Shown here in pieces: positions 4,148 to 49,240 of a DNA stretch of 64,000 nt. The position numbers and the translations under genes are program-made. How positions within the stretch are numbered: position 1 is the first letter of the stretch; each line of letters begins with the position of its first letter. The DNA lies in contig NC_133102.1 in NCBI RefSeq assembly GCF_022965805.1, forward strand, positions 6,394,885-6,458,884. Direction: 5' to 3'. Source of the DNA: Primulina eburnea (taxonomy: Eukaryota > Streptophyta > Magnoliopsida > Lamiales > Gesneriaceae). Below the pieces are notes generated by a model that worked only from the letters and a program-made list of their open reading frames with translations, had not been told where the DNA came from and made no database searches.

Positions 4148-5074
4148 TCTACTACATTATTTGTATATGTTATTTTGGCGGCTTCAAACTGTTTTGTCTA
4201 AGTGTAACAAATGTAATTCCATATCTTTTGATATGAGACATATATGTGGTGTGCAATTTCTGAGTCTTTATATTGAGTTCTTTGTTTGCTAATATGAGCA
4301 CCTACGTTATCACACTCGTACATACAACAGAATCATGTGAATGGGTAAGTTATTTATTAGCAAATATGTTTACATTGTTTTTCCATTTTACATCTCTGTG
4401 CTTTAATTACGAAATTTCTTGTAAATGCTTCAGATTTTCCTCGTCAATGTTGATCTGGTGAACAGCCTGAGTTTTGGGAGGGGCTCAAACATTCCTGTGT
4501 TAGGTAAGCATTCATTTGATGTACTTGTACTGTGATGATTAATTAGGTTAAATAATGATATGTGTTAGTTATGGTGATTTATTCATGTATTAGTAACTAG
4601 TCTTACGAATGTACTTCGGTTGATTTATTCACGTATTACTAACTGGTGTTCCGAAATTTACTTCGGTAGATTTATTCATGTATTAGTAAATGGTTTTAGT
4701 AATTTAATGCTTTTTTAAATTAGTTTGTCACCATTATTACTGCTTGTGTACCCAATATTTTGTAGTAATTGAATCTATGTGTTATGTGAACAAGCATGCA
4801 TCAAATCATCCCTGCACATATTAATTGCAGAGTAATCTTTTTACACTGTCTCACTACCAAAAAATAATTATGAGAATAGCTGTTGACATATGGTGTGCTA
4901 TCAAATCAAAATGATCCTCTATCTGTTTGGAATGACCAGCATTTACTCTTGGGTTGGTATACTATGTTTAATGTATTTGGGTTATTTAAACTCGCCCTCA
5001 TTCATCTGTAACATTTAGTTTACAAACTCAGTTTAGTTGATCATCTTGTGCTTATTTTGCAGAACACTCAAAAT

Positions 5075-5437
5075 ATGTCTGTTACATACAAAGCAAACTC
5101 TGAAGTAAGTGTAACTAGCAAGTACAAAGTGGATGTGATTATCATCTCAGATGATGAAGAAGTGACTGTAGAAGGAGAAGATATTGCTGTGCGCAAGGAA
5201 GTGGAGCATGTGTCATTCGAAGCCTCCGATGTCCCAAAAATATGCACTACCAGCAACCATCATTGCAAAAAATTAGAGGTCGACTGGCAAAAAAAGAAAA
5301 TGCTTGCCATGAAAGCAAGCAACAAACGGTCCAACAATCATCCCAGTGGTCGCCCTTCGAAGAAAACTTTACCTCCGAATGGTGCAGATGGATATGTAGT
5401 AATTAGTACCTCGGATGACTCAGCGAACTCCCCATGA
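5075..5437 (+). CDS. Small protein with SUMO-interacting-like motifs, Harbinger cargo
   Basis: The ATG at 5075 lies just after an acceptor-like TTTTGCAG (ends 5062) and opens 120 codons. An in-frame ATG at 5048 lies upstream of that acceptor and is probably intronic. Residues 19-29 read VDVIIISDDEE, a textbook-like SUMO-interacting motif (hydrophobic run followed by Ser/acidic residues). A second similar run, YVVISTSDDS, lies near the C-terminus (107-116). Between them is a Lys/Arg-rich stretch with NKRSNN and PSGRPSKK, which could be a nuclear-localisation or AT-hook-like segment. I do not recognise a family. A possible upstream exon ends at TGTGTTAG before GTAAGC (about 4502), so the true start could be further upstream or the frame could join the GRF-like transcript. 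A nuclear adaptor role is inference only. Confidence 0.45.
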   Translation: MSVTYKANSEVSVTSKYKVDVIIISDDEEVTVEGEDIAVRKEVEHVSFEASDVPKICTTSNHHCKKLEVDWQKKKMLAMKASNKRSNNHPSGRPSKKTLPPNGADGYVVISTSDDSANSP

Positions 5438-6465
5438 ATGTTTCTGCAAGTATGTCATAAGTATTCCACCCTTTTGCTGTACACAGGTGGACTATATCGT
5501 GTACGCATCTTTGTAATATGTATGTCGTTGTGGAGTGCGTAGTAGCTTTTGTTTTGGAATGTAAATCAACGTGTGGATAAGTATGATATGTTAGTTGTGA
5601 TTGTATTAGTAATAGCCTTATCATATCTTAACTGTGCGTTGTATATTGGCATAAGGGAATGAATAGTAATCGCCTTATCAGATCTTAACTGTCTACCCAC
5701 ACTTAAACGTGCACTGACTTCAGCTGCATAAGGGAATGAATTGTACTGTGTACCAACACTTATACGTGCACGAACTTCATCTGCTTAAGGGAATGAATTA
5801 TTGTGTGTAAAAACACTTAAACAATCCCACCTTTTGAAGTTTGGGTTCTCAATACCACATCTTAAGAAACTCCTATATCATATAGATATGTATTTACTGT
5901 ACTTCCAAGCACATGCTTATATTTAACAGATGAAGTGAAAGCACATCCCTGCACATATTGATCCGTCTCTTCCCCCAAAAATCAGCAAACATTACCAGAC
6001 TAACAAAATCACGAATGCAAACAAATTATAACAATGTATTCAAACTTAGAAGCTGTGTATCCTATACTGAGACTCGTCTGAGATCTCCATTTCACATTCT
6101 GAAAGTTCACAGATACAATGAAATTAGTAGGGCAATATAGCAGACGACAATTGTTCAGCCACAGAATACTTTAACTTGGACTTCGTTTACAAATCAAAAT
6201 GTCAAATCTACACTGCCTGGGACCATTGTTGATGATGTTAGGAGATTCAAGTACTATAAACCCATGGATAACAATATAGTACAAAGGCCAACTATGCATA
6301 TATTTAACGCCAAAATGTAGTTCCATTACAGCATTTTAAACAAGAGGCAAGAGCAACTATCAAAAGACTCAACGCCATAAACATGAAGTCACAACCTTAA
6401 TCCATAACCCAAAAAGTCAGAACCTTAAATACGTGCCAAAATATAGAACCCTATACCATGTCAGG

Positions 6466-7455
6466 TTATGGTTTTAGTAGTCGTTTGATTAAGCTGATCT
6501 TTCCTTCACGATCAAGCCGCAAGAACAAAGCTAGTTTGTTTGGGTTATCCACCAGTACCTCCGCCACACGCACTTTATCGTCTGAAGTTAATTCCGGAAT
6601 AGTTCCTAATGTGGCCAACACACTATCCGTAGCATTTTCAATTTTCGAATCAGATGCCATTTCTTTGATGAGGTTTGACATTGTTTCCTTCGTGATATCC
6701 GCTAAATTATTGATTGCAGCAACAATTTGATTGTCAACTTCGTCTAATTGCTTGCGTTTCTTTGACCTGTTTTTCGAAACTCCAGTTGGGTTTGACGATA
6801 GAGTCTGAGCTACAGACATTGATTCACCATCTCCTTCCAGTGGCCGATAAAAGTCGTCAATGCCAAATTCCATGCCAATGGGTTCATGTTCAGTCATATT
6901 TAAGACATCATGTACAACAGCTGAAAATGTCTCCACTCGCTCACCGGTTGCCCTATCATAGCCAAAGATTTCGCACCAGTCTTTATAATGTGGCCACCGC
7001 TTGTAGCGCAATACTCGAACACTATTGTCAACCTGTAATATATTCGTCTTAACAACGTATACATATGAAATATAAAGTTACGATATGAAAAATAACTTTG
7101 TGACCTTTAGTATCGCGTCCCATGCCTCATTTGTAGCGTCAATCATGTTTTCTGTGTCATTCCAACCAATACCACTTCTTGACAGCATTGATGTCAAGCA
7201 TCCATAATGTTTCTTCCACACGTGTATTTTCGAAGTTATGTGGGGATGCCCACGTAAGTCCGAATCTTTGAATGCATTCCGCAGTGCAGATTCCAATAGA
7301 GGTAAATAGCCATTACGGAATCCGTTCTCCGTTTTATATCCCTTGCTTATTATATCTTTCAATGCGACAATTAAAACCTGTTCCTCAGGGGCTGTCCAAC
7401 AACGTCGCAACTTATCTGCTTTTTTACCTTTCGATGTCACACTTGTGCTTTCCAT
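6466..7455 (-). CDS. Myb/SANT-like DNA-binding protein, PIF/Harbinger ORF
   Basis: Two exons: 7455-7105 (117 codons) and 7032-6466 (189 codons including stop), joined in phase 0 across a GT-AG intron of 72 bp, giving 305 residues. The first exon holds a plant Myb/SANT-like domain of the transposon type: RRCWTAPEEQVLIVALKDI near residue 17, then KIHVWKKHYGCL and GIGWNDTENMIDAT, continuing over the splice as RVLRYKRWPHYKDWCEIFG. The C-terminal half has a basic KNRSKKRKQLDE stretch and a helical segment. In Pong/PIF systems such a protein binds the transposon and recruits the transposase to the nucleus and DNA, which fits its position beside the transposase gene. Both exons are open. Confidence 0.85.
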
Positions 7456-7718
7456 TCTGTCAGATGTTTATTCTATATTAACCTGTTAAACATTATACGT
7501 GACAATTTATAGTCAGAGATGCAACATTACATTTGAAAATGTATAAACAAACTTCAGACCATAATTTGGATAACTATAATTCATCCAATACATAAGTCAC
7601 AAAACAAATGTTTTCAAAGACAACAGTAGTATGTAACGATCAAAGACAATGAAGTTTGCAATCAAGATACAACAAAATATAACAATTGTCTTAGTTGTGG
7701 TACATCGACATTGAAAAG

Positions 7719-9115
7719 TTATCTCTCCACATATCCCATTGCATCGGAGGAATTAAAATCATCAATAAAGTAATTGTCAGTAGGTGGCATTGGGCTTAAT
7801 GTCTCGTCGCCGATCTCGTCAACAAGATTATCCGGCATTTGAGCTCGAACAAAGTTGTGTAACAAAATGCAAGCCATTATGATTCTGTTCTGAGTTTTAA
7901 GTGGGTAGAAAGAAGGACTTCGAAGAATGGCCCATCTTTTTTTAAGCAAGCCAAAAGCTCTTTCAATCACATTCCTAGATTTGCTATGTGTCCAATTGAA
8001 GAGTTCTTTATAATTCTGGGGAGCAGTTGTGCGATTGCCCCAAGCATCCCTATGGTATGGTACTCTTCTGTACGGAGTCAAGAATCCTTGGACGTTTGCA
8101 TATCCATTATCGCACAAATAGTAACAACCTACCATTGAAATGTTATAGTTTGTTAATAAATTACCATTTCAAACAATAATGAAAAGGGAATCCAAAAAGG
8201 AAAATTGGTGAAACAACATCACAATACAAAACAATATTTTTACCTCTTTCAACTTTTAGTCCGTCGTCACGTGATAAAGCATCACGAAGAACTCGAGCAT
8301 CGGCTGCCGATCCTTCCCAACCACAGAGGGCATAAATGAAGTTCATATCTCGGTCGCACACTCCCAAAACATTCACGGCAATGGTTCCCTTTCTGGTTCT
8401 GTATTTTCCCTTCTCTGATACAGGCACATGAACATTAACATATGTACCATCCAACGCACCAACACAACCCTGAAAAATAAGTTACATAAATAGGATTAAC
8501 ATTTATCAGGACGATTACTGTAAGGTAGTGTACGAAGAACATTAATTATGACATTTGAAACAAGTAGTGTTGAGCAAATGTTCATATTACCTTGAACCAT
8601 TTCCACGTCTCGTCGGTGCATGTTTCGTCGACTGGGGAAGGCTTAACGAGCAGTATAGTATGTAACTTCAATACTGACCCCAATACTTCATGGAAATGAT
8701 TGCTGATTGTATGACCACTTCGTAAATAATCATGACCAATGACTCGGTTTTTTTTGTGATGCGCCAAAATAGACAAAAACATTGCGACTTTCTCTTCAAC
8801 CCTAACATATCTAGAATGTTGAAGCCCGCCGACGTGGGTTACCAAGTAACATAGTTGTGCAAAAGAATTTCTATTCATCCTCAAATTCACCACACATTCA
8901 ACATCTCCGGTTTCGATAATTCTTCTCAAATGGTTCATTTGTGCAGTGATTCTTCCTGTCATGCTGTATGAAGCGGCAGTTGTACGTGTTTGACGACGTC
9001 GTTTGGCGATACATCTCGTGCGATGGCGTATTAAAAGACATACCATAAAAGTAGTACGTACCACCATTTGGTGTAGCAGCAGGCAAATTCTAATGTTATC
9101 ATGTCTACGATCCAT
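7719..9115 (-). CDS. Harbinger (HARBI1-like) DDE transposase
   Basis: Three exons on the minus strand: 9115-8591, 8469-8244 and 8128-7719. All have GT-AG borders and compatible phases, giving 386 residues, a normal length for the family. The N-terminal exon holds the helical DNA-binding part (LRMNRNSFAQLCYLV, EEKVAMFLSILAHHKKNRVI). The catalytic domain carries the expected acidic residues: Asp in VGALDGTYV at the start of exon 2, Asp in YYLCDNGY at the start of exon 3, and Glu in NVIERAFGLLKKRW. The closing ACILLHNF motif is also typical. The enzyme would cut and paste the element at TWA targets. No stop or frameshift was found, so the gene could be functional. Confidence 0.9.
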
Positions 9116-16261: not shown

Positions 16262-16443
16262 AGGTCACCTGTGAGACGGTTTCACAAATCTTTATCTGTG
16301 AAACGGGTCAACCTTACCGATATTTTAAATAAATAATAATACTCTTAATATAAAAATAATATTTTTTCATGGATGATCCAAATAAGAGATATGTCTCACA
16401 AAATACGACCCATGAGACCGTCTCACGCAATTTTTTTTTTGTC
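16262..16443. mobile_element. GAGACGGTCTC MITE copy upstream of the receptor kinase
   Basis: It runs from CACCTGTGAGACGGTTTCAC through TCTGTGAAACGGGTCAACC and CATGGATGATCC to GAGACCGTCTCACGCAA. It lies about 350 bp upstream of the LRR receptor kinase start codon, close enough to influence its promoter. Confidence 0.75.
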
Positions 16444-16793: not shown

Positions 16794-19700
16794 ATGCCTG
16801 TTCATCCATGGCGGCCCCGTCTTCTCTTCTTTTTCTTCTGTAATTTTCTGTTGTTCTTCTCTTTTCCGCCGTCTTTTGCAATCAATCCACAGGGTGAATG
16901 CCTTCTTTATTGGAAGGGAAGCTTAAATGCATCTGCGGAGGCGTTGAATAATTGGGATTCGGCTGATGAAACTCCATGTCGATGGTTTGGTGTAACCTGC
17001 AACTTCAAGAATGAAGTTGTGGAGATAAACCTGAGGTACATTGATTTGCATGGAAATGTTCCTAATAATTTCAGTTCTTTGGAGTACTCCTTAAATAAAC
17101 TTGTCCTGTCGGGGACGAATCTAACCGGTTCGATCCCTGAAGGAATCGGCCATCTTCAAGAGCTGAGGGTTCTTGATTTGAGTGACAATAAAATAAATGG
17201 CGAAATTCCGGGTTTTATCAGTCACTTGCCTAAACTGGAGCAGCTTTATCTCCACACAAATCTGTTGGCAGGCTCAATTCCAGGCGAAATCAGGAACCTG
17301 ACATCCCTGGTTGAGTTGATAATCTATGATAATCAGCTCAGCGGGGAGATTCCTGGCAGCATTGGAAATTTGAAGAATCTTGAAGTGATTAGAGCTGGTG
17401 GGAACAAGAATCTTGGAGGTTCTATCCCTCAAGAACTCGGAAACTGCACAAATTTAATCTTGTTAGGCCTGGCAGAAACCAGCATTTCTGGGTTTCTTCC
17501 TTCTTCCATTGGCATGTTGAAAGAGCTCCAGACTCTTGCTGTATATACAGCTCTGCTTTCGGGACAAATTCCTCCAGAACTCGGTGATTGTGCTGCGCTG
17601 CGGAATGTTTATCTCTATGAAAACACACTCATCGGCTCGATTCCGACTAAACTTGGAAGCCTACAGAATTTGGAGAATCTCTTGCTATGGCAGAACAATC
17701 TGGTCGGCACAATTCCTCCGCAGCTTGGAAACTGTAATAATTTACTAGTTATCGATGCTTCGATGAATTTTTTAACCGGTGGGATTCCAGAAACTTTTGG
17801 AAATTTGACCCAGTTGCAAGAGTTGCAGCTGAGTGCGAATCAAATTTCCGGCAAGATTCCGCTTGGGCTTGGGAATTGCTTGGCTCTGACTCATATTGAG
17901 CTCGATAACAATCAAATCACTGGAACAATCCCTGCAGAGTTTGGGAATCTGATAAATTTGACTCTTTTGTTTCTGTGGCAAAATCGTTTGGAGGGTAATA
18001 TTCCTCCATCTTTATCTTCTTGTAAGAACCTGGAAGCTATTGACTTGTCGCAGAATGGATTGACAGGTCCGATACCGAGCGGTATATTTGGATTACAGAA
18101 TCTAAACAAGTTTTTACTGCTGTCAAATAATATTTCTGGTTCTATACCTCCTGAAATTGGGAATTGTTCTTCGCTGATTCGGTTCCGAGCAAGTAACAAT
18201 ATGCTGACGGGGAATGTGCCCCCATATATTGGGAGGTTGAAGAATTTGAATTTCTTGGATCTTGGAATAAATAGGCTTTCCGGGATTGTGCCAGTTGAGA
18301 TTTCTGGTTGTCAAAATCTCACTTTTCTTGATTTGCATTCCAATTCGATAACCGGGAACTTGCCGGATGATTTGAATCGGCTTGTTACCCTGCAGTTTCT
18401 TGATGTTTCTGATAATCTCATTGAAGGCACTTTGAATCCAAGTCTTGGTTCATTAATTTCACTCACGAAACTCATTCTCGGGAAGAACAAGCTATCTGGT
18501 TCGATCCCTAGTGAACTTGGTTCGTGTTCTAAGCTTCAGATGCTTGATTTAAGCAGCAATGAGTTAGAGGGGAAGATTCCGGGGAGTATGGGGAAGATTC
18601 CTGCATTGGACATTGCTTTAAATTTGAGCTGTAATAGACTTTCGGGTGGGATCCCGGAGGAGTTTGCCGAGTTGGACAGGCTTGGAGTACTAGACATTTC
18701 TCACAACCAACTCTCCGGGGACCTACGTTATCTAGCCGTTCTTCAGAATCTCGTGGTTCTAAACGTATCATACAACAATTTCTCAGGAGAGGTGCCAAAC
18801 ACGCCGTTTTTCGCCAAGCTGCCACTCAGCCTCCTAGATGGCAACCCCGACTTGTGCTTTTCCGGCAACAAAGAGTGCTCGGCTAATGAGGGTGCTGCCG
18901 CCAGGCACAAGATGTCCGCAAGGGTGGCGATGGTGGTGTTGATTTGTACGGCCTGCTTGTTGATGTTGGCCGCTCTCTACATCATCCTCGGGGGCAAGAT
19001 GCGCGGGCACGGGTCCCACGAGTGCGATATGGACAGCAGGGAAGATGTAGAGTTAGGGGGGCCGTGGGAGGTCACATTGTATCAAAAGTTCAGTTTATCT
19101 ATCAACGACGTTGTAAAATCTTTAACACCCATTAACCTAATTGGTCATGGTCAGTCAGCCACAGTATATCGAACCGTAACCCCGTCCGGATCCGTCATCG
19201 CCGTTAAAAGATTCCGCACATCCGAAAAGTACTCGTTCGACGACATTCTCATCCGAGATCACGACACTAGCCCGTATCCGACACAGAAACATTGTTAGAC
19301 TTCTAGGTTGGTCATCCAACAGGAAGACCAAACTGTTATTCTACGACTACTTGCATAACGGTACATTAGGCGACTTGTTACACGAGGGGCAAGGGGACAA
19401 GATCGAATGGGAGATTCGATTCAAGATTGCGTTAGGAGTTGCCGAGGGCTTAGCCTACTTGCATTGCGATTGCAGGCCGCCTATCCTACATAGAGATGTG
19501 AAGACACAAAACATACTGTTGGGGGAAAGATACGAGCCATGTTTAGCTGATTTTGGACTGGCAAGGTTTGTTGAAGATGAAAATGCTGCATTAGCAGCAT
19601 ATCCCCAGCTAGCTGGATCATATGGATATTTTGCTCCTGGTAAAATTCTCTCCCACTGTTTCCTATTTTGCTCAAAAAATCATTCACTTATTATTTACAC

Positions 19701-20524
19701 TCTTTGAAATATTGAAACTACATTTTTGTTTTTCACAGCATAATCTGTCACTTTCGTAAAGTACTGCACGCATAATTGGTAGCAAGATCATTTCAGTTGT
19801 AATAATTGCTTAATAATAAAATGTGGTTGGAAACTTCATTGGATGTTACATGTAATTGTGTTTGCTAATTGTGGGGACTTATGCATGTGAAGTCACGTGA
19901 TTGCCTCAACTCTATCCTAATTAATTTGTCTCCGTATACTTGGCTTGGCCCCTACTAGGATGCCCTACGAGTTCATCAAGAAATTTTCTTTCTAACATAG
20001 CTTGTGCCCTTTTGAACTTTGCAGAGTATGCCTCCATGGTAAAAATCACCGAAAAGAGCGACGTCTACAGTTACGGCGTCGTGCTGTTAGAGATTATAAC
20101 TGGGAAAAAACCGATCGACTCTTCGTTGGGAGAGGGACAACACTTGATTCAATGGGTAAGAGACCACTTAAAGAATAAAAAGGACCCAGTCGATCTTGTT
20201 GACCAAAACCTCCAAGGCCATCCGGACACACAAATACAAGAAATGGTCCAAGCCCTCGGGATAGCCCTTCTATGCACGAGCAATCGTCAAGGGGATCGTC
20301 CCTCGATGAAAGATGTCGTGGCGTTGTTGAAGGAGATCAAGCACGAGCAAGTAGCGGGAGGCGATCAAACTCAGAAGCCAGCGAGTAAATCATCCAACAA
20401 CTGCGAGGTTTCGTCATTTTCTTCGTCGTCGGTGACCCCGGCTCAATTGTTGCTTCTCCAAGGGTCATCTAATTGCTCCCTGGCTTACTCCTCTTCCTCC
20501 ACAAATTACAATGGGAATCAATAA
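16794..20524 (+). CDS. LRR-XI receptor kinase, RGI/RGFR-like, with a one-base frameshift
   Basis: Two exons, 16794-19639 and 20025-20524; the intron splits the Glu codon of the kinase FAPE motif. Read through the frameshift, the product is about 1,114 residues, normal for the family. Order: hydrophobic signal peptide (1-29), LRR N-cap with ETPCRWFGVTC, some two dozen LRRs, one membrane segment (709-733), kinase domain. RAGGN at 200-204 contains the RxGG motif reported to bind the sulfotyrosine of RGF peptides in RGI receptors, and neighbouring repeats read like RGI3/RGI4. Kinase motifs: glycine loop GHGQSATVY, VIAVK (Lys 805), LHRDVKTQN, ADFGLARF, FAPEYAS. One extra T at 19236/19237 shifts the frame after EKYS and brings a stop at 19296; removing one base restores the conserved sequence. 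This could be a real null allele or an assembly error. Confidence 0.88.
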
Positions 20525-22883: not shown

Positions 22884-23065
22884 AGGTCTTTTGTGAGACG
22901 GTCTTACGAATCTTTATCTGTGAGACGGGTCAACCCTATCGATATTTACAATAAAAAGTAATACTTTTAGCATAAAAAATTATATTTTTTCATTAATGAC
23001 TCAAATAAAGAATCTGTCTCATAAAATACGACACATGAGACCGTTCACACAAGTTTTTGTCTTAT
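22884..23065. mobile_element. GAGACGGTCTC MITE copy
   Basis: It runs from GGTCTTTTGTGAGACGGTC through GTGAGACGGGTCAACCC to ACAAGTTTTTGTC. It lies between the TRIM and the foldback element, inside what may be an older shared repeat. Confidence 0.75.
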
Positions 23066-23599
23066 TCTTATTAAAATGTATAATTTTATTCTTATAAATA
23101 AATTTAATAAAAAAAATATATTAAAGTGTAAAATCTATAAATTAAATATCAAAACTATTTTTAATCTAAAACTAACTCGTGAACCTATTAGCGAACATAT
23201 TTTACGAGCTAACAAACAAAATATTATATCAAATCAAATTTTGAAAGCTCAAGGACTGCTTATGAAATGACTGAAAATGAAATTCATATGTTCATTGACA
23301 TGATGAAAAAGAAGAAAAATATTGTGATTAATAAAACGGTAAATTACCCAAAAATACCTCTGTCAATGTTTTCATTAAAATTCAGTACCTAGCAACTATT
23401 TTTTAGAAATCAGTACCTGACAAATCTATACATTTAGTTTTAGCTACCCATTAAACAAACTTTACATTTTTACCCTTTATTATTTAAATAAATATATTAT
23501 TTTATCCACCAAAATTATATCATTTTTCTCCATTTAAAATATAATTTTATCAAAATATTGTTTCTCAATTATCATTGAATAAAAGTAAATACTTGTTTT

Positions 23600-25330
23600 G
23601 ACATACAAAGTACCTATAATGAGGTTTCACATACTTGATTTCGCTCTTTGAATACTCTAAATATATAATAAAATACTATATTTTCGAACATTAACCGTAA
23701 ATTCAGTCATTGTTGGTATTTTCATGAAAAATGCATTAGGATGACTTATTCTTGTCATTTTATTTTTTAAAAAAACACAGGTCATCACTCATCATGAAAT
23801 AAGATTAGGTATTTATTTTGACCAACAAAATACCTATTTTGGAGTTCCAAATGCTTGATTTTACTCTTTGAATACTCCAAATGTATAAGAAAATACTGGA
23901 TCTTCGAGCTATCACAATAAATTCAATAAAGTTGGTATTTTCATTGAAAATGCATTAAGATGGCTTATTCATGTCATCTAAATTTTGAAAAAACACAGTT
24001 TCTCACTCATTGTTGAATTAGAAAAATTAGTTATTTTGATCAATAAAATACCTATTTTCGGTTTTCAAATATTTGATGTGACTATTTGAATACTTCAATT
24101 ATGTAAGAAAATACTTAAGTTTCAAGTAATATTAAGTGACTTTTGATTGTGTCATTTGTGAAGTTAAAATGTGATACTTAAATTGGTACAAAGAGTATGT
24201 AATTAGAGTATATAAATACATTATTTTACCTCGTAAATACTCATATCCAATTATTTGATGATGCCGAAATATAATTTGAAGTTAATATTAAGTGACACCG
24301 ATGATGATTTTCGTGAAGCAAAAATGTGATACCTAAATTAATACAAATAATACATATTTCTAGTTCATAAACACTTGATTTTACCTTTTAAATACTCAAA
24401 TTCGATTGAGTATGTCAAAATATATAATTTAAAGATAATATTGAAAATTTTTTTATGATAAGATTTTTGAATAAAAAACGCGCTACCTAAAATTGGTACA
24501 AATAGTATCTATTTTGATTTCACATATACTTGATTTTACCATTTTAAGACTCAATTTTGATTATTTCGGGATATAGAAAAATATAGTTAGTAATATTGAG
24601 TGACTTTTGATGTGTCATTTATGAAGTTAATAAAATGTGATACCTAAATTAGTACAAAAAATATATAATTCGAGTCTACCAATACTTTATTTTACTTCCT
24701 AAATGAGAAGTATTTTAATTTGAGTTTGCAAATACTTGATTTCGTAAATGAGATACTCACAATATGTATTAAAATACTGGATATTCAAATAAGCAATGTA
24801 AGTTCATAAAGTGTTGGTATGTTTATGGAAGATATATTTGGATGACATATTCATCTCATTTAATAATTAAAAATAAATAAATTCATGATTCTCAACTAAG
24901 CATGAAAATTTTAAAGTACTTAGTTTTACTTGAGAAGTACCTAATTTAAGTTTGCAAATACTTGATTCGTAAATGAGATACTCATAATATGTATTAAAAT
25001 ACTATATATTCGAATATGCAACGTAAGTTCACCAAATATTGATATTTCTATGGAATAAGCATTTGGATGACATATTCATATCATTTAATATTTTTTCTGT
25101 AAAAGAAAAAATAAATTCCCAACTAAGCATAAATATTTTAAAGTATTTGCTTTTATTTGAGAAGTACCTAATTTGATATTGCAAATATTTAATTTGGTAC
25201 ATAAGATACTCATAATATGTAATAGAATGCTGAATATTCGAATATATAATATAAGCTCATCAAGTGTTTATCTTTCCTTGGAATATGCATTTGGATGACA
25301 TATTCATCTCATTTAAAGAAAAAAATACTA
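23600..25330 (+). repeat. Left-arm tandem array of the foldback element
   Basis: Diverged units each containing CTTGATTTTACTCTTTGAAT, AATACTGGATATTCGAA-like sequence, TTGGTATTTTCATGGAAA and GATGACATATTCATCTCATT. Units are less alike here than in the right arm, suggesting this arm is older or has not been homogenised. Confidence 0.7.
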
Positions 25331-25839
25331 ATAAATATAATGAATAATTACCAATAAGTATTATGTCAAATAAGTATAATTGTCAAATAAGTCATTCAAT
25401 AAATATAAAAAAGTATTGTCAATTAATATTTATGAGTATTTTATAAATAATTGATCCAAGAATCGATAGATATGCTTCAAGTACAAACTTCAAGCTCATT
25501 TACGAACTATGTTTATAATGCATCTCTCGATTAGTCCATGATGAATAATGAACTATGTTTATTTATTTAAATGATATGAATAAGTATACTAATGAATTTT
25601 CCATGGAAAGATTGCATATTCAAATATCCAGTATTTTAATGCATATTGTGAGTATCTTATTTACGAAATCAAGTATTTGCAAACTCAAATTAGGTACTTC
25701 TTTAGTAAAACTAAGTACTTTAAAATTTTCATGCTTATTTGAGAATTTTTTGGCCAAAAAAATATTAAATAAGATGAATATGTAATCCATGCTTAGTGAT
25801 CGATCAAAACTTTCATTGTAAAATTCTTAGTAAAAATTA

Positions 25840-26480
25840 ATAATATTCAAGCTCGAAATAATCGCAAGTACACGATGTCAAGTAATAATATAGTTATGGG
25901 CTTTCAATAATCGCAAGTGCACGATATCAAAATGTTCAATGCTTAGTGATTGAGCAAAACTTTCATTGTCTAAAGACTACATTTCTCAATTATTATTCTC
26001 AGTTATTCAATTTTTAGCAGCGATACTTCAGATGATTGTTTACTACTACGATTATTAAATAAAAACTCAATGAAATGGTTCAAGGATTAAATGATGCAAT
26101 AAATAAGCTAGAATGATTGATTAAACTTCAATGAGAAGTGAATTTGTTGAGAATCTCAGTTCACTTACCCCTCGCTAATCTACTCAATTCATTCGACAAT
26201 GATCTATGCTTTCGACGAGATTTCATATCCAACTGAACACGTCTTCTCAAACTATGCCAAATTAATTCAACCTAGTGAACTAATTAAATCTCTTTAATTA
26301 TTTATCGATGGTGAATTGCATATCGTTTTATTAAATCTCATAGCTTTCGACCTACTGGACTATGATTATCGACGTGTATCCGACTTCATATTTCTCTATA
26401 AATTGTAAATCCACGGATTATGCTAATCGTTTCTATCACGGGCTATTCTCTCGAATAAAATTGTCCGGAAATCTTCAAAT
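25840..26480. mobile_element. Insert at the centre of the foldback element, retrotransposon-like remnant
   Basis: This segment does not resemble the arm units. It contains ATAATCGCAAGTGCACGATA, GAGAATCTCAGTTCACTTA and TTTCGACCTACTGGACTATG, phrases that I associate with LTR-retrotransposon-derived repeats in other plant genomes (recalled, not searched). No open frame of note. Confidence 0.4.
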
Positions 26481-28890
26481 CTTCGCTCTAAACCTTTTTT
26501 ATCTTTCAAAGCTTTGTGGCTGTTGAAATGTCCTTGAACATGTAATCCAAATACATCTTGGATGGAAACACGAGCACTTGGTGAACTTACATTACATATT
26601 CGAATATCCAGTATTTTAATACTCATTATGAATATCTCATTTACCAATTAAATATTTTAAAACTGAAATTAGATATTTCGGAAGTAAAACTAAGTACTTG
26701 AAAAGGTTCAATACTTAGTTGCGAATTTGTTTTTTTTAACAATTAAAAAAACTATTAGATGAAATGAACATGTCATCCAAATGTATCTTGGATAGAAATG
26801 CGAGTACTTGGTGAACTTACATTGCATATTCGAATATCCATTATTTTAATACTCATTCTGAGTATCTCATTTAATTTTTTTAAAAATAAAAAAATAACTA
26901 AATGAAATGAACATGTAATCCAAATGCATCTTGGATTTAAATGTGAGCACTTGGTGAATTTACGTTGCATATTCGAATATCTAGTATTTTAATACTCATT
27001 CTCAGTACCTCATTTACAAAATCAAATATTTTAAAATTGAAATTATGTATTTCGCAAGTAACAAAACCAAGTACTTGAAAAAGTTTAATGATTAGTTACA
27101 AATTTATTTATTTTTTTTACAATAAAAAATAATTAAATGAAATGAACATGTCATCCAAATGCATCTTGGATGGAAATGTGAGCATTTGGTGAACTTCCGA
27201 TACATATTCTAATATCCAGTATTTTAATACTCATTCTGAGTATTTCATTTACCAAATCAAGTATTTTAAAATTGAAATTAAATATTTCGCAAATAAAACT
27301 AAGTACTTCAAAAAGTTCAATGCTTAGTTGCGAATTTGGTTTTTTACAAAAATAATTTAATGAAATGAACGTATTATTACCAAATCAAGTATTTTAAAAT
27401 TGAAAATAAGTATTTCACAAGTAAAACTAAGTATTTGAAAAAAATTCAATGCTTAGTTACGAATTTGTTTTTTAACAATAAAAAAATATAATTAAATGAA
27501 ATGAACATGTCATCCAAATGCATCTTGGACGGAAATATGAGCACTTGGTGAACTTACGTTGCATATTCGAATATCCAGTATTTTAATACTCATTCTGAGT
27601 ATTTCATTTACCAAATCAAGTATTTAAAATTGAAATTAGGTATTTCGCAAGTAAAACCAAGTACTTGAAAAAATTCAATGATTAGTTACAAATTTGCTTT
27701 TTTAAACAATAAAAAATAATTAAATGAAATGAACATTTAATCCAAATGCATCTTGGATGGAAATGTGAGCATTTGGTGAACTTACAATGCATATTCTAAT
27801 ATCCAATATTTTAATACTCATTCTGAGTATTTCATTTATCAAATCAAGTATTTTAAAATTGAAATCAGGTATTTCGCAAGTAAAATTAAGTACTTGAAAA
27901 AGTTCAATGATTAGTTACAAATTTGCTTTTTTAAACAATAAAAAAATAATTAAATGAAGTGAACATTTCATTCAAATGCATCTTGGATGGAAATGTGAGC
28001 ATTTGGTGAACTTACGATGCATATTCTAATATCCAGTATTTTAATACTCATTCTGAGTATTTCATTTATCAAATCAAGTATTTTAAAATTGAAATCAGAT
28101 AATTCACAAGTAAAATTAAGTACTTCAAAAAGTTCAATGCTTCGTTGCTAATTTGTTTATCTTTTAAAAATAAAAAATATTTAAATGAAATGTACATGTC
28201 ATCTAAATGCATCTTGAATAGAAATGCGAGCACATGGTGAACTTACATTGCCTACTAGAATATCCAGTATTTTATTAACTTTTATGAGTATCTCAATTAC
28301 CAAATCAAGTATTTAAAATTGAAATCAGGTATTTCGCAAATAAAAGTAAGTATTTCAAAATTTTCAATGCTTAGTTACGAATTTTTTAAAAAAATAATAA
28401 AAAAATAATTAAATGAAATGAACATGTCATCTAAATGCATATTGGATGAAATGCGAGCATTTGTTGAACTTACGTTGCATATTCAATTATCCAGTATTTT
28501 AATATCCATTCTGAGTATCTCATTTACCAAATCAAGTATTTTAAAATTGAAATTAGGTATTTCGCAAGTAAAACTAAATAATTGAATAAGTTCAATGCTT
28601 AGTTGCGAATTTGTTTTTTTAACAATAAAAAAATAATTAAATGAAATGAGCATGTCATCCAAATGGATCTTGGATGGATATGAGAGCATTTTGTGAACTT
28701 GCGTTGCATATTCGAATATTCAGTATTTTAATACACATTCTAAGTATTTCATTTACAAAATCAAGTATTTTAAAATTGAAATTAAGTATTTCGCAGATAA
28801 AACTAAATATTTCAAAAAGTTCAATTAGTTGCGAATTTGTTTTTTAAATAAAAAATATTTAAATTCAATTTACATGTCATCCAAATGCAT
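26480..28890 (-). repeat. Right-arm tandem array, period about 229 bp
   Basis: About ten head-to-tail units. The landmark GCATCTTGGATGGAAATG recurs near 26544, 26784, 26926, 27161, 27520, 27749, 27978, 28207, 28437 and 28667, so the last six spacings are 229-230 bp, while earlier ones are altered by deletion or partial duplication. Each unit also carries TATTCGAATATCCAGTATTT and AAATTGAAATTAGGTATTTC. These are the reverse complement of the left-arm units. Confidence 0.85.
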
Positions 28891-29325
28891 TGGGAATGAT
28901 GAGTGGAAAGTGAAGATGACCAATAGAAATATGTATTTATATCAATTTTTATTAATTAAAAGGGTAAAAAGGTAAAAATGCATAAAACATGTATTAAAAA
29001 CTAACTTGATTTTTTGTCAGGTATCAAAATATGAAAAAAAACTCCTGGGTACTGAATCTTAAATAAATCTTTGACAGATGTATTTTTCTCCAAATTGCCC
29101 TTAATAAAATATAATAAACACAAAATATCTCATTTTCTCTCTATTTTTACCTTGTTTTTACATGAGAAATAATTAAAATTTGAAAACAATATTTTTTATG
29201 TTAAGAATATGAGATCATTCTTGATTTATCATTTCAAGAAAAAAAATCTCTCTTATAATATCGAATCATGTACCGTAACTAGCAATGACATGATAATATT
29301 ACTTAATTATAAATTTAATACACAA

Positions 29326-29406
<81 letters not shown>
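29326..29406. repeat. (TA)n followed by (CA)n microsatellite
   Basis: A TA dinucleotide tract with one AATA interruption, ending in a short ACACAC run. Confidence 0.9.
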
Positions 29407-29714
29407 GCATTATAATATCACAAAATGAATCAATACCAAGTTTTTAAGATAACAAGTTGATTCAATAATTGTGAAATAAATATAAGATTTGGTGTAGGGA
29501 TTTACCCTAAATTAATGAGACTCCTCGAGATTTTCTGTGGATCGACCACTAATAATTTGGTAGATATATCTACACCGGTTGATGTGGACATATCGGCATT
29601 CAAATATATGTCAGTCATCATATTATTTTCAAACTAATAATTTGACCATCGTAAGTTCCATTTTATTTCATTGCACTTTATTTTTAAAAAAAATTTAAAT
29701 TACAATTTCTCATT

Positions 29715-29890
29715 GAGTGAGATTCATGTGAGACTATCTCACGAATCTTAATCTGTGAGACGAGTCAAACCTGCCGATATTCACAATAAATAGTAATACT
29801 CTTAGCATAAAAAGTAATATTTTTTCATTGATGATCCAGATTCGTCTCACAAATACAACCCGTGAGACCGTCTCGCACTAGTTTTTATCT
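29715..29890. mobile_element. GAGACGGTCTC MITE copy
   Basis: It starts GAGTGAGATTCATGTGAGAC and ends GTGAGACCGTCTCGCACTAG then TTTTTATC. The usual internal CTTAGCATAAAAAGTAAT is present. Confidence 0.75.
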
Positions 29891-32291: not shown

Positions 32292-33449
32292 TATCATCAT
32301 CACCTGCCATCATTCAAACATAGTGAATCTAATGACTCAACACGTTCTAAACATGAGTAACAAATAATACATATACAAGCACATGCATTAAAATCATACT
32401 TTTATTTAAAATAACTTTTATGCATAAATAAATCATGAATCGTAAAATCATAAATCATAAAGCTTTCATCACTTATTATTTTGGGTGAAGTTTGATCATT
32501 GAAAGTGATTAGCCTTTTTATCACATGTTCGACTGATTAGTCTTTAGCTCCACATACGCATGGGGACGGACACTAGGTACCGCCACGAAAATACGATCTT
32601 CGGGGTCCCTCTGGGGCCTTGTCTCTCATGACATTCCCATAAAATTGTAAGTTTACCGTTTCTTCTTAAAACGGATCACCCACAAATCCTCTATCATTCG
32701 TCACAATCAGTTCACATTCTTCAAAACATTTTTCTTTTTCTTTTCAAAGCATAAAATATTATGAATTTTCAAAAATAGCATTTTAACAGTAGATATCGCA
32801 TATCTTTACCATAAATTATAAAAATATCATATTTTCATCTAAATCATCATGATATATCATTTATCATGGGTTATGACCCTTCAGGACATTGCCAAGCATT
32901 TTCGTATTACCCATGTGTAAAATGATAATTTTGTCCCTAAACTTAAAATTTATCGATTTTGATTTTTTCTTACTTTTACTAACTCTAAACCACCCCAAAC
33001 ATTTATTTAAGCATAAATTAAATTTTAGATATTTTTATTTAGCTTAGATTCGAGCCTTTCGATCTAATTCCTTTATTTTTAATTCGTGGAGCGTTAAATT
33101 TCTCAATTAATTCAAACCTTAATATTTTCTTTCCAAATTTTATACATAGACTTATATGAATTCCTATTTTTATAATATTACATAATATTTTCAATAAAAT
33201 GACATGCAAGAATATTGACATATATTGTAATATTTATCAAAGTCATATTACAAAAGTCAAAACATGATATAATTATAAAAATATCATATTTGTTTCAACG
33301 ATAATCGTATGATTAAAAATTAAATAGTCAGATTTCTGTATTTTTTAATATGAATATATAACAATCTAAAATAAATTTAAATGCCACGTGCCATAATTGT
33401 TCATTTGTAATTTTTCGGTGATGTTATCATTTCGAGATCTCTTTTTTTG
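32292..33449. other. Intergenic DNA with a decayed LTR-like segment
   Basis: 32500-32900 contains CTTCGGGGTCCCTCTGGGG, CATAAATCATGAATCG-type and AAATTTATCGATTTTGA-type phrases that suggest an old LTR. No ends or coding regions could be defined. Confidence 0.35.
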
Positions 33450-33632
33450 ATAAAAACTTGTGTGAGACGATCTCACATGTCGTATTTTGTGAGACATATA
33501 TCTTATTTGAGTCATCCATAAAAAATATTACTTTTTTATGCTAAGAATATTACTTTTATTGTGAATATCAGTAAGGTTGACATGTCTCACAGATAAAGAT
33601 TCGTGATACCATCTCACAAGAGACCTACTCCG
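33450..33632. mobile_element. GAGACGGTCTC MITE copy
   Basis: It runs from GATAAAAACTTGTGTGAGAC through TATGCTAAGAATATTACTTT to CATCTCACAAGAGACCTACTC. Confidence 0.75.
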
Positions 33633-38325: not shown

Positions 38326-39107
38326 AATCTGATGATTCTGTACTTGCCGTATATTTAGACAGTAGCCATAAAATTATCTTCACTAACTTTAATTCATGTT
38401 TGAACAGATTCGATTAGCAATCTAATCAGTAAATTTTAATTGTAATTAGCTCAATCGAATACTCTAATCCTTAGACTAGAAATCGATTCACACGATTATT
38501 CATTTGTTCTATCTCGTCGAATCGGATTATAGAAACGTTTTTTTAGAGGTTGCAAACACTCTCGATGTGTTTTAGAGTTGTGCAACATTTTCGATGTCTT
38601 TTCTGCATACGATTAAGTTTTATGATATTACTGCATAATTTTTTCTTCACAATCTTTAATTCATCATTCCATGTTATGAACTTCAATTCCAAATTAATTG
38701 AATTTAACTATAAGGAGGTGTAATGCCTTTGATTTCTTAAATAAAAGATAATTGAAGCAAGCACCTTAAGAATCATTTACCGACCTTTTGGTTTCATCAT
38801 TTTAAGTATTTTTAAAATTACAAAAATCCAAAAGAACACCATTTTTGTGTAAAAAATAAATTTTAAAATATTTTTGAATGCAATAATATAATTTTAGACT
38901 ATTTTTAATAGTAGGGAGAGGTTGTTAATTAAGATTTGTTGACTTAAGCATAGCCAAAGGATCGAAGAGTTTTCGTTTGTTTTTATTAATTAATTACTTG
39001 GTTGACTGAGCCTTAATATATAATTTTCCAATATTAAATAGTAAACCTGCCTCCTAGCTGACTGAGATACACCTATTATTTCAAGTAAGTTTTTTATTAT
39101 TAAAAAA
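38326..39107. other. 3' flank of JmjC gene
   Basis: AT-rich, no gene seen. The first 300 bp probably include the untranslated end of the transcript. Confidence 0.5.
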
Positions 39108-39295
39108 AAGAGTGAGTCTCATGTGAGACCGTCTCACGGATCATAATCTGTGAAACGGGTCAACTCTACCCATATTCACAATAAAAAGTAATACTCTTAG
39201 CATAAAAAATAATACTTTTTCATGGGTGACCTAAATAAGAGATCCGTCTCACAAATATAACCGTAATATCGTCTAACACAAGTTTTTGCCTTAAA
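39108..39295. mobile_element. GAGACGGTCTC MITE copy (well preserved)
   Basis: It starts AGAGTGAGTCTCATGTGAGA and ends CAAGTTTTTGCC. About 185 bp with the internal TACCCATATTCACAATAAAA and CATGGGTGACC. It is one of the clearest full-length copies for defining the family ends. Confidence 0.8.
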
Positions 39296-39900
39296 AAAAT
39301 TAGCCGGAAGATACTGGAAATCTAGTTTGGTGACAGAATTTTTTCTAAATATTAAATGTTATATACATTTTTTCTCCGAGTTGTATATTCACATGGGAGT
39401 TGTACGTGCCCATGCAGACATTTAAGATTTGATTTTAATTGCACATTTCTCTTTTTATTTTATTTGTTATATTGGATGAGATTTTTCTGATATTTACTTC
39501 CTATTCTTGGATAAATTTAATTATTTCGCAATAACTTAAGATGAGAAAGGACAATAAATGGTACCTACAAAAGCTCTGTTTAATTTACATGGAAAGGGAA
39601 CAAGAAATTTATTACAAGGATAAAAAATCAAACACAAACTACCCTCCAAAAGCTTAAAGTGATCAAGAGTAAAAAAAAATTAAAATAAATAAAGAAGGTC
39701 CCAAAGAATTAACAACAATCAAAATCTCAAAAGAAACGAAAATATCCAATATACTAAATGAGTAAATAAATACTCAGTTGGCATATTAGAAATCGTAGAA
39801 TCACCGACGATGATTTGTAGTTCATGTGATACCGATTGAGGTATCGAATGAAATACTATATTCCCAACTCGAGAAAAAAATATATATATTTCCAAATTTT
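39296..39900. other. Intergenic DNA between the JmjC and neprosin-like genes
   Basis: No gene seen. The part nearest 39900 may contain the 3' untranslated region of the minus-strand neprosin-like gene. Confidence 0.5.
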
Positions 39901-39901
39901 C

Positions 39902-42574
39902 TTATGGACACCTAGAGTTTCTTCCGGGGCCTCCGTAGTAAAAATAATTACCCCAAACACTATTTTTCCCAGCTTTTATGTTGTAGCAATTGGGATGATC
40001 GGCCAAGAGATGAAGATTGGATAAAGGGATCAAGTTATTATCCCAATCAACAACTTGCAAATTCCTGAAATAGGATGCTTTCTTGAATCCTTCGTCTGCA
40101 AAATGCCCACTTCCCATTTGTGTTGACGTGTGAGACCCCATTGATCTAGTGTTCACTATTTCTCCTCCAAATTGAACCATACTTGCATGCCTTTGTAAGT
40201 GACTAAACATGAATGATGGCCAATATCCCACTAGGAGCCCTGGTGCCAATTCGAGCCACCAGTGTCCGTGCTTCGGATCCTAGACACGACTCACGCCTCA
40301 GTACTCAAAAATTATTTGATGATTCAAAATTATCGAATAACAAGAGAAATAAAGTCTAAATTATTTTATTCGATAGTCATCTGAACTACGTGCAAAGTAA
40401 AAAAAATTTAAAATAAATTTATTCTTAAACGAGCTTAGGGGCTTCATAGGAGTTGAGTTTTAAATTAATAGAACTCATAAACAATCTTGAACAAAATAAA
40501 CTAAGCTTAAATAAGGACACTAATTCGAGCACAACATGGTTTATTCTTTTCAAAAAAAAATCGGTCAGCTGAAATAAACTCACTTCGAATATACATAATT
40601 GAATAAGTCTTTTGTAAGACGGTCTCACGAATATTTATCTGTGAGATGAGTCAATCCTACCGATATTTCTAATAAAAAGTAATACTCTTAGCATAAGAAG
40701 TAATACTTTTTCATGGATGACCCAAATAAGAAACTCGTCTCACAAAATACGACCCGTGAGACCATCTCACATAAGTTTTTGCCAACATAATTACAAGATA
40801 TTATACATTTATTTAACTTCGTTGGCTCTAACCCATAAACAAGCAAGAGTGCACCCAAGTCTTGGATTCTTGGCTTGTACACGAATACCTAGTTTTTTCT
40901 CTAGAAAGCTGGAAAGAAGTTTACATGGAATTAAGAAATAGTGTTGAGATTCTAAAGCATCTAAGAAATAATTTTTTTTTCCGAGAAAAAGGGAGTCAAA
41001 AGTGGATCAAAGCATGCCCCTTCGGAAAGAAGAGAATCATGCCATATTTTATCAGAAAACATCGAAGAAAACAAAGCGTGGAAGATACATCATTAATTAA
41101 TTAATTAATTAAAGCTTAGCATATAAAAATTTCATCCTGACCCTTTTTCACTAAATAATTTGTAAAGCTAATGGGAAGCCATTGACTGCATACATGAGAA
41201 GGATGGGGGTATGATTTATATCTCGTCAAACTCAATTGTAACAAACACCTCCCGATAAAAAACAATCGAAAAACTCCGCGTACCTTCCAAATCAAAATGT
41301 CGATGTCGAATTGTCTAGAGCTGTAAGATGACCTTGGAGAAATTGCTGCTCCAATGGCAATTTTGTTGTTAATTTGTACAAATCCGGAACATAGTAAATT
41401 GTAACATCCCGTTTCTTGGTATGCATCCGTCTGTTAATTCCCATAATTTCTATACATTAGTGATGTAATAGTTCTTGTTTTCATTGATAACAATCATAGT
41501 ACATATATTAATTATATTGTCACAAATTAATACTAACCGTCCAATACGTGAAAAACCTAGGATAGTTGTCTCCATATAATTCCGGGCTGACCTGCAAATG
41601 GTAAGTAGATTTATAGTAGCCAATTAACCCAAATCCAATGGCAAAATAAACAAAACAAATAAATTCGACTCGTTATTATCATCCATGTCCTTTATGGACA
41701 AACGTCTCCTACATAAAATTTCAAAAACATTAATATATTTTTAATTATTTTGTACATAGTAAAGCTTGATTAAATTATCAGGTCGACTATTTATTTAAGA
41801 AAATGATCTCATAAAGTATATTTGAATACAAATTGATTTTCTTAAAAAAATAGTTGATCAGAGTTACGGTGAACGAACCTGCCAACCGGCTTCAATGGTG
41901 TTGAGATCATGACCAAAGGAACCAGAGATGAGCCATAATTGAGACAGGCTGAATTCATATTCATCTGTCACGCGGGGCGCCCACACGTTCAGGCTGGCCT
42001 TGGCTCCGTAGTACTCCTCTCCATTCACAAATGCAACCGCATGCTGTATTAATTCAAGCACTAGTACTAATCAATAATTCATCATTGTCACTATATATAT
42101 ATACGTAAAGACAGCACAATGAAACGTACAGAAGCGAGAACTTTAATATATACTGAAGGAAAGATGACCGATATCTAATAATCTAACCTCATGATCACTA
42201 CTCATCGTGTCTCGTCGTACGCCCCTTGCGATTTTTTTACCGAATCTACGAATCGAACTAGCCCTCAGAACATCTTTCTCTGTTGTTCTTCTGATCGGAA
42301 TGCTTCCTTCAGGGCATGATTCACCGTTATCGATCCATGATTGAAATATTCCTGTAATGGAGTCGATATTGGACACATTGGTCTTTGGTCTGTCAGGTGG
42401 CTCCTGCAATCAACCAAAACAGAAGATTTTTTATTTTTTTTTCAAGGATCAAGGATTGATTGACATGCATATATAGTTGAAATTTGAGTAAATTTAAAAC
42501 AGCCCTTTTGATATTTTCTCCTACATATCTACCATTTAGTCATAATATTACTCAAATTATATGTACCATAATCA

Positions 42575-43113: not shown

Positions 43114-43427
43114 ATATGATCTGGCAGGTGCAGGTGGTTTATTCGTGTGCTTGTTTGTTTCTTGAGGTAGAACTAGGTTGCGTTTGTATTCATTTGTAGA
43201 TTGTCCTGTAATGACAATAAAACCTAGTCGAGTTTTTTTAGGTACTATGATGACAACAAACAGTGGCCACGCAGCCTATTCAAAAAGAAAAGTTAAACGA
43301 GGTGCATTTGCGCTCTCTGATCATTTCATTACTTTTTATGGCCACATGTTGACGCATGATTAACATACCTCTCTTTTCACAATCCTCCCACTATCTATGT
43401 GCATGCGAGTATTTTTATTTTTCAAAT

Positions 43428-43612
43428 GACAAAAATTTGTGGGAGATGATTTCACGTATCGTATTTTGTTAGACGGATTCTTATTTGGGTCATATATAAA
43501 AAAATATATTACTTTTTATGCTAAAAATATTGTTTTTTATTGTGAATATCGGTAAGGTTGACCGTATCACATATAAAGATTCGTGAGACTGTCTAACAAG
43601 AGACTTACCCTT
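43428..43612. mobile_element. GAGACGGTCTC MITE copy upstream of the neprosin-like gene
   Basis: It runs from GACAAAAATTTGTGGGAGATG to GTGAGACTGTCTAACAAGAG; diverged. About 320 bp upstream of the candidate start codon. Confidence 0.65.
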
Positions 43613-47530: not shown

Positions 47531-49059
47531 CAATCATATTGAGTTGCAGAACATATAAATAAATATTTTAGAATTGCAACGGAGAGTTTGTTTTTTCATG
47601 AATATAAATATCATTATCAATCAATAAAACTATCAAAACACACATTTTCATTTGAATAACTGAAGTAATGCAGCCCAACGTGGAAACGATCCATCCAAGA
47701 GACACATTGATACAAACTAAACATCAAAAGTTGGTTCAGACGCCGCCTGGAATTTCCGGGCATAAATCGTATGGAGGGAGCACCCAAAACGGACGTCCCT
47801 GCATTATGCCTTCCGTCTGGAGTCATCCAGACAAATTCAGGCAGTGACAAATTGATAAAAGAATCAGATAAAATAATATTTCATTTGTCCCTTAATATAT
47901 AATATAAGTAAATCGTTGGAAAAAAAGTTTCCTTCTTTTATTATCATTTTTTCTCCATTCGTCCCAAATATGCAGATCACCAGATATAGAGAGTTAAGTA
48001 TAACTTTAGGATAATCAAAAAGGAAATTAAAATGAAGTTATATAATTAGAATGTAAAGAGTATTATATAAATAAAATGTATTATATTGTAGTTTTTATAT
48101 TTGTGACGGAAAATATTGAAACCCGACTAATCAAAAACAAAAAAAGTAACAATGAATGTTGCAAAAAGTGCATTAAAAGAGGGTGATGACTTTATAGAGT
48201 TGTAGAGCAAAGTTGTCTGCCACTGTTGGTAGAGGCCCTCCCCCCTATTCATTCTTGCTATTTATTTCCAGTGCTTCAAATTATTTATTATCATGATTTT
48301 ATCTCTTCTTTTAAGAAAAGAGCCACTCACATTCTCGTCTGCAAAGGAATTAGGAACTGTTGAGGAATATTGGCCCATTACATGTCACTCTCGTTTCCCA
48401 ACAATATTAGAGACCACACACTCACCAATTTTATTTATTCAGTTTTATTTTCAGTGCAAACACATTAATTACTGAGGTTGAGATTTTGAAATTTATTCGT
48501 CTTAGATTTGAGTCTTGTTGATTGTAAGTAATTTTCTTAATTTATTTATGCAGATTTAGTTGTTTTTTTTTGTCGAGATAACCAAGTAACGGGTCGATAT
48601 TTAAATCTAGTCAATAATGCGGAAAATTATATTACGTATGTGTAGTTCAGAGCACTATTATAGTTGTACTGAAAAAAAGTTGGTTGGTTGGCATGAATGA
48701 TAGTTACCATTTCAACTCCATAATTAATCCACACAGAAACAGTAACAATTACATTTATTGGAACTTGACTTTAATTTGTTTGTTTAAATGAGTCTTACGT
48801 TCAAACTCAAAAAAAGAAATTAGTATTTTTCGGTTACAATTTCTACATTTATTAATATTTGTTCTTATTATTTACTAATATTCCATTAAGTATGTCTGGA
48901 AAAGCGTGCAAATATTTTTTTAATGAATTAAACATGCATAAAATAAGAGGTTTGCTTTAAAATCTTATTTTTTCAATGATTTTTTTTAAATCTGTGTGAA
49001 ACACAAACAACTCAATATATTTTTTTGACGGTGGGAGTAAGTTCTAATTATAAATGAAG
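47531..49059. other. Intergenic DNA; small GC-richer segment at 47617-47850
   Basis: A 77-codon minus-strand frame at 47617-47850 is locally GC-richer than its surroundings and lies next to the CACTA end. It could be a captured gene fragment. I do not recognise it and make no gene call. The rest is AT-rich with nothing visible. Confidence 0.35.
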
Positions 49060-49240
49060 ACAAAAATTTGTGTGAGACGGTTTTATGAGTCGTATTTTGT
49101 GAGACGAGTATGTTATTTGGTCATCCATGAAAAAATATTATTTTTGTGCTAAGATCATTATTTTTTATTCTGAAAATCGGTAGAGTTGACTCGTTTAACA
49201 AATAAAGATTCGTGTGACCCTCTCACAATACAGCTACTCA
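49060..49240. mobile_element. GAGACGGTCTC MITE copy
   Basis: It runs from GACAAAAATTTGTGTGAGAC to GTGTGACCCTCTCACAATAC; diverged, internal part recognisable. Confidence 0.7.

Follow-up and report, generated by a model that had tools for sequence, protein, structure and literature searches.

A probable Mutator-type foldback transposon with tandem-repeat arms of two types in Primulina eburnea

Foldback transposon families are known from plants, among them FARE, SoFT and Tnr8, and from Drosophila (FB). The element analysed here, at positions 23337-29100 of a 64,000-nt stretch of Primulina eburnea contig NC_133102.1 (hereafter the window, whose numbering is used for all element coordinates), is of a kind already known from Tetris, Galileo and Tm1. 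The closest design, likened by description, is Tetris of Drosophila virilis, a foldback element whose inverted ends are reported to contain tandem repeats of ~220 bp and which is reported to have seeded satellite DNA (PMC4079207). Like the Primulina element, Tetris is described as apparently non-autonomous, with 8-10-bp duplications and a suggested Mutator affiliation, and it occurs in modular rearranged forms and seeds longer arrays (PMC4079207). Unlike Tetris, which has an animal host, the present element resides in a plant and has two unit lengths in its left arm and arms of different types, and large free unit arrays were not shown among the loci read here. Galileo shares long repetitive ends (with a repeat region of ~210 bp in the F subfamily) and variable repeat number (PMC3573991, PMC3688188), as well as copies that are chimeric between subfamilies and a core found with different ends (PMC3573991); it differs in belonging to the P superfamily, with a P-type transposase and 7-bp duplications (PMC3573991, PMC3688188). 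Tm1 of root-knot nematodes is also a Mutator/foldback element with composite ends, a variable number of internal repeats, most commonly 9-bp duplications, and both coding members and members resembling miniature inverted-repeat transposable elements, but its repeat motif is ~14 bp, its host is an animal and a transposase-bearing member is known (PMC3169594).

Among plant systems, the Mutator-like elements (MULEs) with tandem terminal repeats described by Ferguson and Jiang resemble the present family in their Mutator type, 9-11-bp duplications, duplicated terminal regions and amplification of the altered form; however, they double the whole terminal repeat (PMC3310237), whereas the Primulina element has a single terminal repeat at each end, with the units inside it. 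MuTAnT is a plant foldback MULE, mostly of 200-300 bp, and the part of its description consulted does not mention arrays inside the element (PMC4486113). The Primulina family itself was not described in the literature searched, which was screened by title and abstract start and mostly excluded subscription journals. An earlier model-made reading of the letters alone (the sequence-only reading) had known of no description of this family; that the kind is undescribed is not supported, given the similar design of Tetris (PMC4079207).

The Primulina element is 5,764 bp long and is bounded by perfect 9-bp direct repeats, TTAATAAAA, at 23328-23336 and 29101-29109, which directly adjoin the termini at 23337 and 29100, as the sequence-only reading had stated. 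From base composition, a 9-bp match would arise at two fixed flanks by chance with a probability of 1.9e-5. The terminal inverted repeats are imperfect and ~150-165 bp long, the left one being of type L (23337-23505, plus strand, beginning CGGTAAATTACCCAAAAATACCTCTGTCAA) and the right one of type R (28923-29100, minus strand, GGGCAATTTGGAGAAAAATACATCTGTCAA from the end inward), and the family end pattern is GG(T/G)(A/C)AA(A/T)TT...AAAAATAC. Duplications of 9-11 bp and terminal inverted repeats of roughly 100-500 bp characterise MULEs, and the lengths seen here fall within both ranges. Alignment of the left end with the reverse-complemented right end scored 115, whereas none of 300 Markov resamples scored above 64. 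Within the element, the sole match of the terminal repeat is the opposite end, and there is no complete tandem doubling. Long, internally repetitive inverted arms make up most of the element; the proposed inversion was borne out by the listed left-arm/right-arm matches, all of which are inverted, and the best match elsewhere in the window is 35 bp long (E 0.002).

The source genome (812 Mb, 1,224 contigs) contains at least 29 loci related to this element. The element search returned at least 289 matches, a lower bound given that 33 of 2,492 candidates were scored, and 31 stretches representing 29 loci were read, together with four more and seven short or single stretches. Among the matches listed, copies lie on many contigs and the same ends recur, within a few bases, wherever both ends exist. 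Identical 9-mers flank 16 of the 22 copies examined, two of them after a 1-base shift, indicating a mobile, Mutator-type, non-autonomous foldback family, in line with the mobile foldback element with Mutator-type duplications that had been proposed. In the first 18 copies, the 9-mers were identical in register in 13 and after a 1-base shift in L031, with one mismatch in L012, two each in L016 and L027, and none identical in L025; in the four further copies, they were identical in L043 (1-base shift) and L044, with one mismatch in L040 and no duplication found in L041. L025, whose left end is short by 29 bases, and L041 were both counted as misses. When the left flank of one copy was paired with the right flank of another, identity occurred in 2 of 306 pairings; L010/L011 and L038 bear the same 9-mer. 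The 14 perfect duplication sites among the first 18 copies are AT-rich. Spread of the copies by segmental duplication was also considered and rejected, as the flanks did not match between the copies compared: the 300-bp flanks of 18 copies showed no match to the other loci read, apart from a short dispersed repeat and one match of 77%.

We assign a probability of about 0.9 to the reading that the window element is a non-autonomous foldback DNA transposon of the Mutator type. The foldback form is clear, and Mutator membership is probable. Several points weigh against this assignment: identical flanks are missing from six of the 22 copies (one mismatch in two copies, two mismatches in two others and no match in the remaining two), the identity between the two ends is low (~70%), and the Mutator affiliation rests on duplication length and end structure. 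In addition, no transposase gene with matching ends turned up, a result with no domain-level scan behind it. The longest stop-to-stop frame encodes 132 aa in 16 of 17 copies, the exception being the copy with an 8-kb unmatched stretch, and, outside the nested stretches of L010/L011 and L042, none of the family copies read contains a frame longer than 145 aa.

In the window copy, ten left-type units and one isolated unit precede a core of 741 bp, which is followed by eleven right-type units, some of them partial, in the opposite orientation. The left arm (annotated on the plus strand) comprises outer units L1-L3 of 215-220 bp, the third partial (23545-24125), four units of ~150-155 bp, the last partial (24120-24703), and inner units L4-L6 of 181-227 bp (24677-25312). 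The isolated unit (25611-25790, minus strand) has the right-arm orientation and is nearest to left-arm unit L4 (85%). The core (25790-26530), which is free of arm units, is followed by the right arm (26531-28897, minus strand), whose full R-type units are ~222-235 bp long and which includes two shortened units (26761-26873 and 27377-27485) and a last fragment (28868-28897). A profile built from eight right-arm units, leaving out R2 (shortened), R4 (long) and R11 (the last fragment), gave 20 window matches at E<1, all inside the element, of which eight are its own training rows and two are weak (E 0.014 and 0.14). These matches fell on the minus strand at 23572-25309 and on the plus strand at 25611-28897, and the best control scores were 5.2 bits in three shuffled windows and 1.7 bits in the reversed window. 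Tandem Repeats Finder (TRF) periods were 218 bp (23596-24115), 225 bp (24704-25316) and ~230 bp (27377-28890), and four copies spaced at 155-156 bp lie within 24155-24718. Thus the arms are tandem, as the sequence-only reading held, but not the uniform ~229-bp arrays it described, since units of ~215-235 bp are accompanied by a left-arm block of ~150-155 bp. Pairwise identity among the units is only 50-94%, which marks the array as old. Unit number varies between copies that share the same ends, as that reading had anticipated, with 8-13 left-type and 8-13 right-type units in each of 17 copies, and unmatched stretches occur in the large copies L010/L011 (8.1 kb), L016 (3.1 kb) and L019 (2.5 kb).

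The 10-bp direct repeat ATGTAATCCA stands on both sides of the core (25780-25789 and 26540-26549) in unit register, as would be expected had an arm unit received an insertion long ago, and excision of the core in silico restores the unit register over 399 bp at 82%. The core was found in 16 of 16 aligned hybrid copies (described below) and partly in the R/R element L044. A recent nested insertion of the core was therefore rejected, and the core, if it is an insertion, would be older than the hybrids.

The left-arm tree separates groups A, B and C, with nine copies in group A that are mutually 97-99% identical, except for L017 at 94-95%. The group C elements L028 and L043 carry L-like ends on both sides (L/L); their right ends are 77-80% identical to the window left end and 70-76% to the window right end. 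In a right-end search (40 scored of 423 candidates), R-type ends faced each other 5.65 kb apart on contig C6 and 6.9 kb apart on contig C5 among the matches listed. The element on C6 (L044) is of type R at its two ends (R/R) and has a perfect duplication (TTGATTTAA) and 1.5-kb arms that are 92.9% identical; its outer units measure ~145 bp, and it shares part of the core of the window copy. When the window element was compared in 200-bp pieces with L043 and L044, element bases 1-2000 were 90-95% identical to L043 and, where alignable, 72-79% to L044 (bar a 21-base match of 90%), whereas bases 2801-5600 were 84-93% identical to L044 and, where alignable, 76-83% to L043. The window copy thus combines an L-type left arm with an R-type core, right-arm units and right end, a hybrid build common to the A and B subfamilies. 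Two points count against this assignment: the R label of the right arm is based on the similarity of its units and on the core and end, and the right arm is not colinear with L044, because the outer arms of L044 have ~145-bp units. The right-arm pieces had their best L044 matches mostly on inner units, out of register with the outer arm.

Identical flanking 9-mers were found in 13 of 17 hybrid copies (seven of nine in A and six of eight in B, one B copy after a 1-base shift), which shows that the hybrid form has itself transposed. Across the 16 hybrid copies measured, identity between the two ends is 65-74% (for L028 and L043 it is ~80%), yet their left ends are 86-99% identical to that of the window copy, so the end asymmetry predates the insertions. 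The hybrid could instead be a recombination product that has been immobile since its formation, comparable to the Galileo chimeras. The twelve chimeric two-subfamily Galileo copies of D. mojavensis are described as having different 7-bp sequences at their two sides, and thus no matching duplications (PMC3573991), and L/L and R/R elements with both ends exist in the same Primulina genome. However, the chimera seen here was amplified with its duplications, and the identical 9-mers at both ends in most hybrid copies make an immobile recombinant highly improbable.

Tandem units, together with R-type units at many loci (at least 301 matches, with 40 scored of 851 candidates), would also be expected of a satellite array or fragment that was inverted by chance and flanked by a chance 9-bp repeat. 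This explanation is scarcely credible in view of the precise common ends with many different 9-bp duplications, on which a free satellite array was rejected. All 22 window units are also closer to the same-numbered unit of L012 (96-100%) than to their best match within the copy (73-93%), and the array locus L050, read in part, begins with an end-like repeat. Between subfamilies, all ten left-arm units of L012 (A) are nearer to some unit of L037 (B) than to any other unit of L012, two of them by only ~1%; in the right arm, seven of 11 units are nearer the other copy and four nearer a neighbour, and in the reverse comparison, from L037 to L012, all eight right-arm units are nearer the other copy. 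The four exceptional right-arm units of L012 point to limited turnover between subfamilies, confined to the right arm. On the whole, the arms are copied as a fairly rigid block, unlike a homogenising satellite.

Tandem arrays derived from the family were nevertheless found at two loci, each read in part. A search with the core (40 scored of 2,153 candidates) revealed five core matches arranged head to tail on contig C2 (G000:C2:7255900-7288451; L027, L045-L049) in steps of ~6.48-6.49 kb, with pieces from four of the five units being 99.7-100% identical. The element carried by this array is of B type, and both of its ends are present in the final copy. A single inner junction was read through, and there the element breaks off within its left arm and gives way to other sequence. 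The second locus, L050 (G000:C17:2001900-2008000), starts with an end-like repeat that is 78% identical to the left end and contains 18 units in one orientation; a block of R-type arm plus core is repeated there (1466-3490 and 3728-5791, 89.7% identical) as a ~2.3-kb repeat. To judge from these structures, sequence of the family appears to have given rise to tandem arrays at C2 and C17. The suggestion of the sequence-only reading that such elements could spread satellite seeds gains partial support from the family-derived arrays at two loci, but is tempered by the rigid copying of the arms. Among the R-unit matches listed, arrays made purely of units did not exceed a few kb.

The arm units contain a ladder of RTAC motifs spaced at 21 bp, with as many as five consecutive motifs in a unit, raising the possibility that the arms exist to provide binding sites for a transposase or host factor. 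TAC occurs in the right-arm consensus at 63, 73, 84, 105, 126 and 147 (steps of 10, 11, 21, 21 and 21), and three or more RTAC motifs at 20-22-bp steps are present on the arm strand in 12 of the 22 units of the window copy but in none on the opposite strand. Among 4,400 shuffled units, 0.14% reached three RTAC motifs and none reached four. In Galileo, tandem repeats in the long ends are reported to contain extra transposase binding sites (PMC3688188). Conservation in the left arm is higher for the TAC columns of the right-arm consensus (94 of 108) than for its other columns (744 of 1,071). However, the units share descent and are not independent, and five overlapping comparisons of TAC with GTA conservation between subfamilies gave p values of 0.006, 0.14, 0.21, 0.34 and 0.48. 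For the left arm, the whole-arm 10.5-bp signal was stronger than in any of 200 shuffles, but this was not so for the right arm, and the element ends lack such phasing, so the 10.5-bp phasing is only suggestive. Information also extends over several bases beside the motif, a pattern that an ancient 21-bp minisatellite would likewise produce, and a minisatellite origin accounts for the ladder equally well. A binding-site role for the arms is thus doubtful, though conceivable.

The inverted arms could also mean that the element serves mainly as a source of hairpin RNA for small-RNA silencing. The predicted fold of the window copy (-1418 kcal/mol) contains 757 left-right pairs, compared with -1014 kcal/mol (35 pairs) and -995 kcal/mol (274 pairs) in two shuffles and -1252 kcal/mol (56 pairs) with the right arm flipped. 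However, an unrelated flank of equal length folds at -1195 kcal/mol with 211 such pairs, making the folding of a 5.7-kb AT-rich strand a weak test, and only six uninterrupted left-right helices in the window fold reach 15 bp, a single one of them reaching 21 bp. The very long double-stranded RNA expected by the sequence-only reading is accordingly weak for this copy, which may form imperfect double-stranded RNA. The R/R form, with its long and similar arms, speaks for the hairpin explanation and should make a better hairpin than the window copy, but silencing as the main role of the element is improbable.

The surroundings of the element include a dispersed ~170-210-bp repeat of the GTGAGACGGTCTCAC type, which occurs in at least ten places in the window (2034-2450, 16264-16436, 22886-23061, 29712-29886, 33442-33624, 39103-39301, 40588-40791, 43426-43605, 49059-49227 and 52332-52517) and also beside other copies of the family. 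A gene for a leucine-rich-repeat receptor kinase, broken up into separate frames, lies at 16794-20524, ~2.8 kb upstream of the element. A (TA)n microsatellite is located at 29326-29395, ~217 bp downstream of the insertion, which does not lie inside it; MuTAnT elements are reported to target (TA)n-type repeats (PMC4486113). Farther away, a Ty3-type retrotransposon open frame of 1,476 aa occupies 59506-63936. Frames with Myb/SANT-like and DDE_Tnp_4 domains are found on the minus strand at 7078-8135 and presumably represent a PIF/Harbinger-type transposon.

In the scenario that we propose, a MULE transposase encoded elsewhere in the genome would recognise the element ends and move the whole 5-6-kb block, and the tandem units would either add internal binding sites or merely build up by unequal exchange. 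The hybrid may have arisen when L/L and R/R elements recombined or underwent conversion; alternatively, the L/L and R/R elements may derive from the hybrid by arm copying. Rearrangement at some loci would then produce longer tandem arrays that carry the units. The full combination, namely a plant family of Mutator foldback elements whose arms are interchangeable, a two-type chimera that transposes, a binding-site ladder along one helix face in each unit and rearranged copies that found arrays, is put forward tentatively and is rather unlikely to hold in every part. Among the literature examined, foldback elements with ~200-bp repeat arms acting as satellite seeds are documented in flies; the plant genome analysed here holds L/L and R/R elements and a hybrid that has multiplied with its duplications intact, together with two kinds of tandem array. 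Comparison of copies within one assembly makes it possible to test both how a transposon turns into a tandem array and how arms are exchanged between subfamilies, and the 21-bp RTAC ladder offers a concrete target for a transposase-binding test. If the combined scenario is correct, a single genome would display a transposon, arm exchange and a nascent macrosatellite together.

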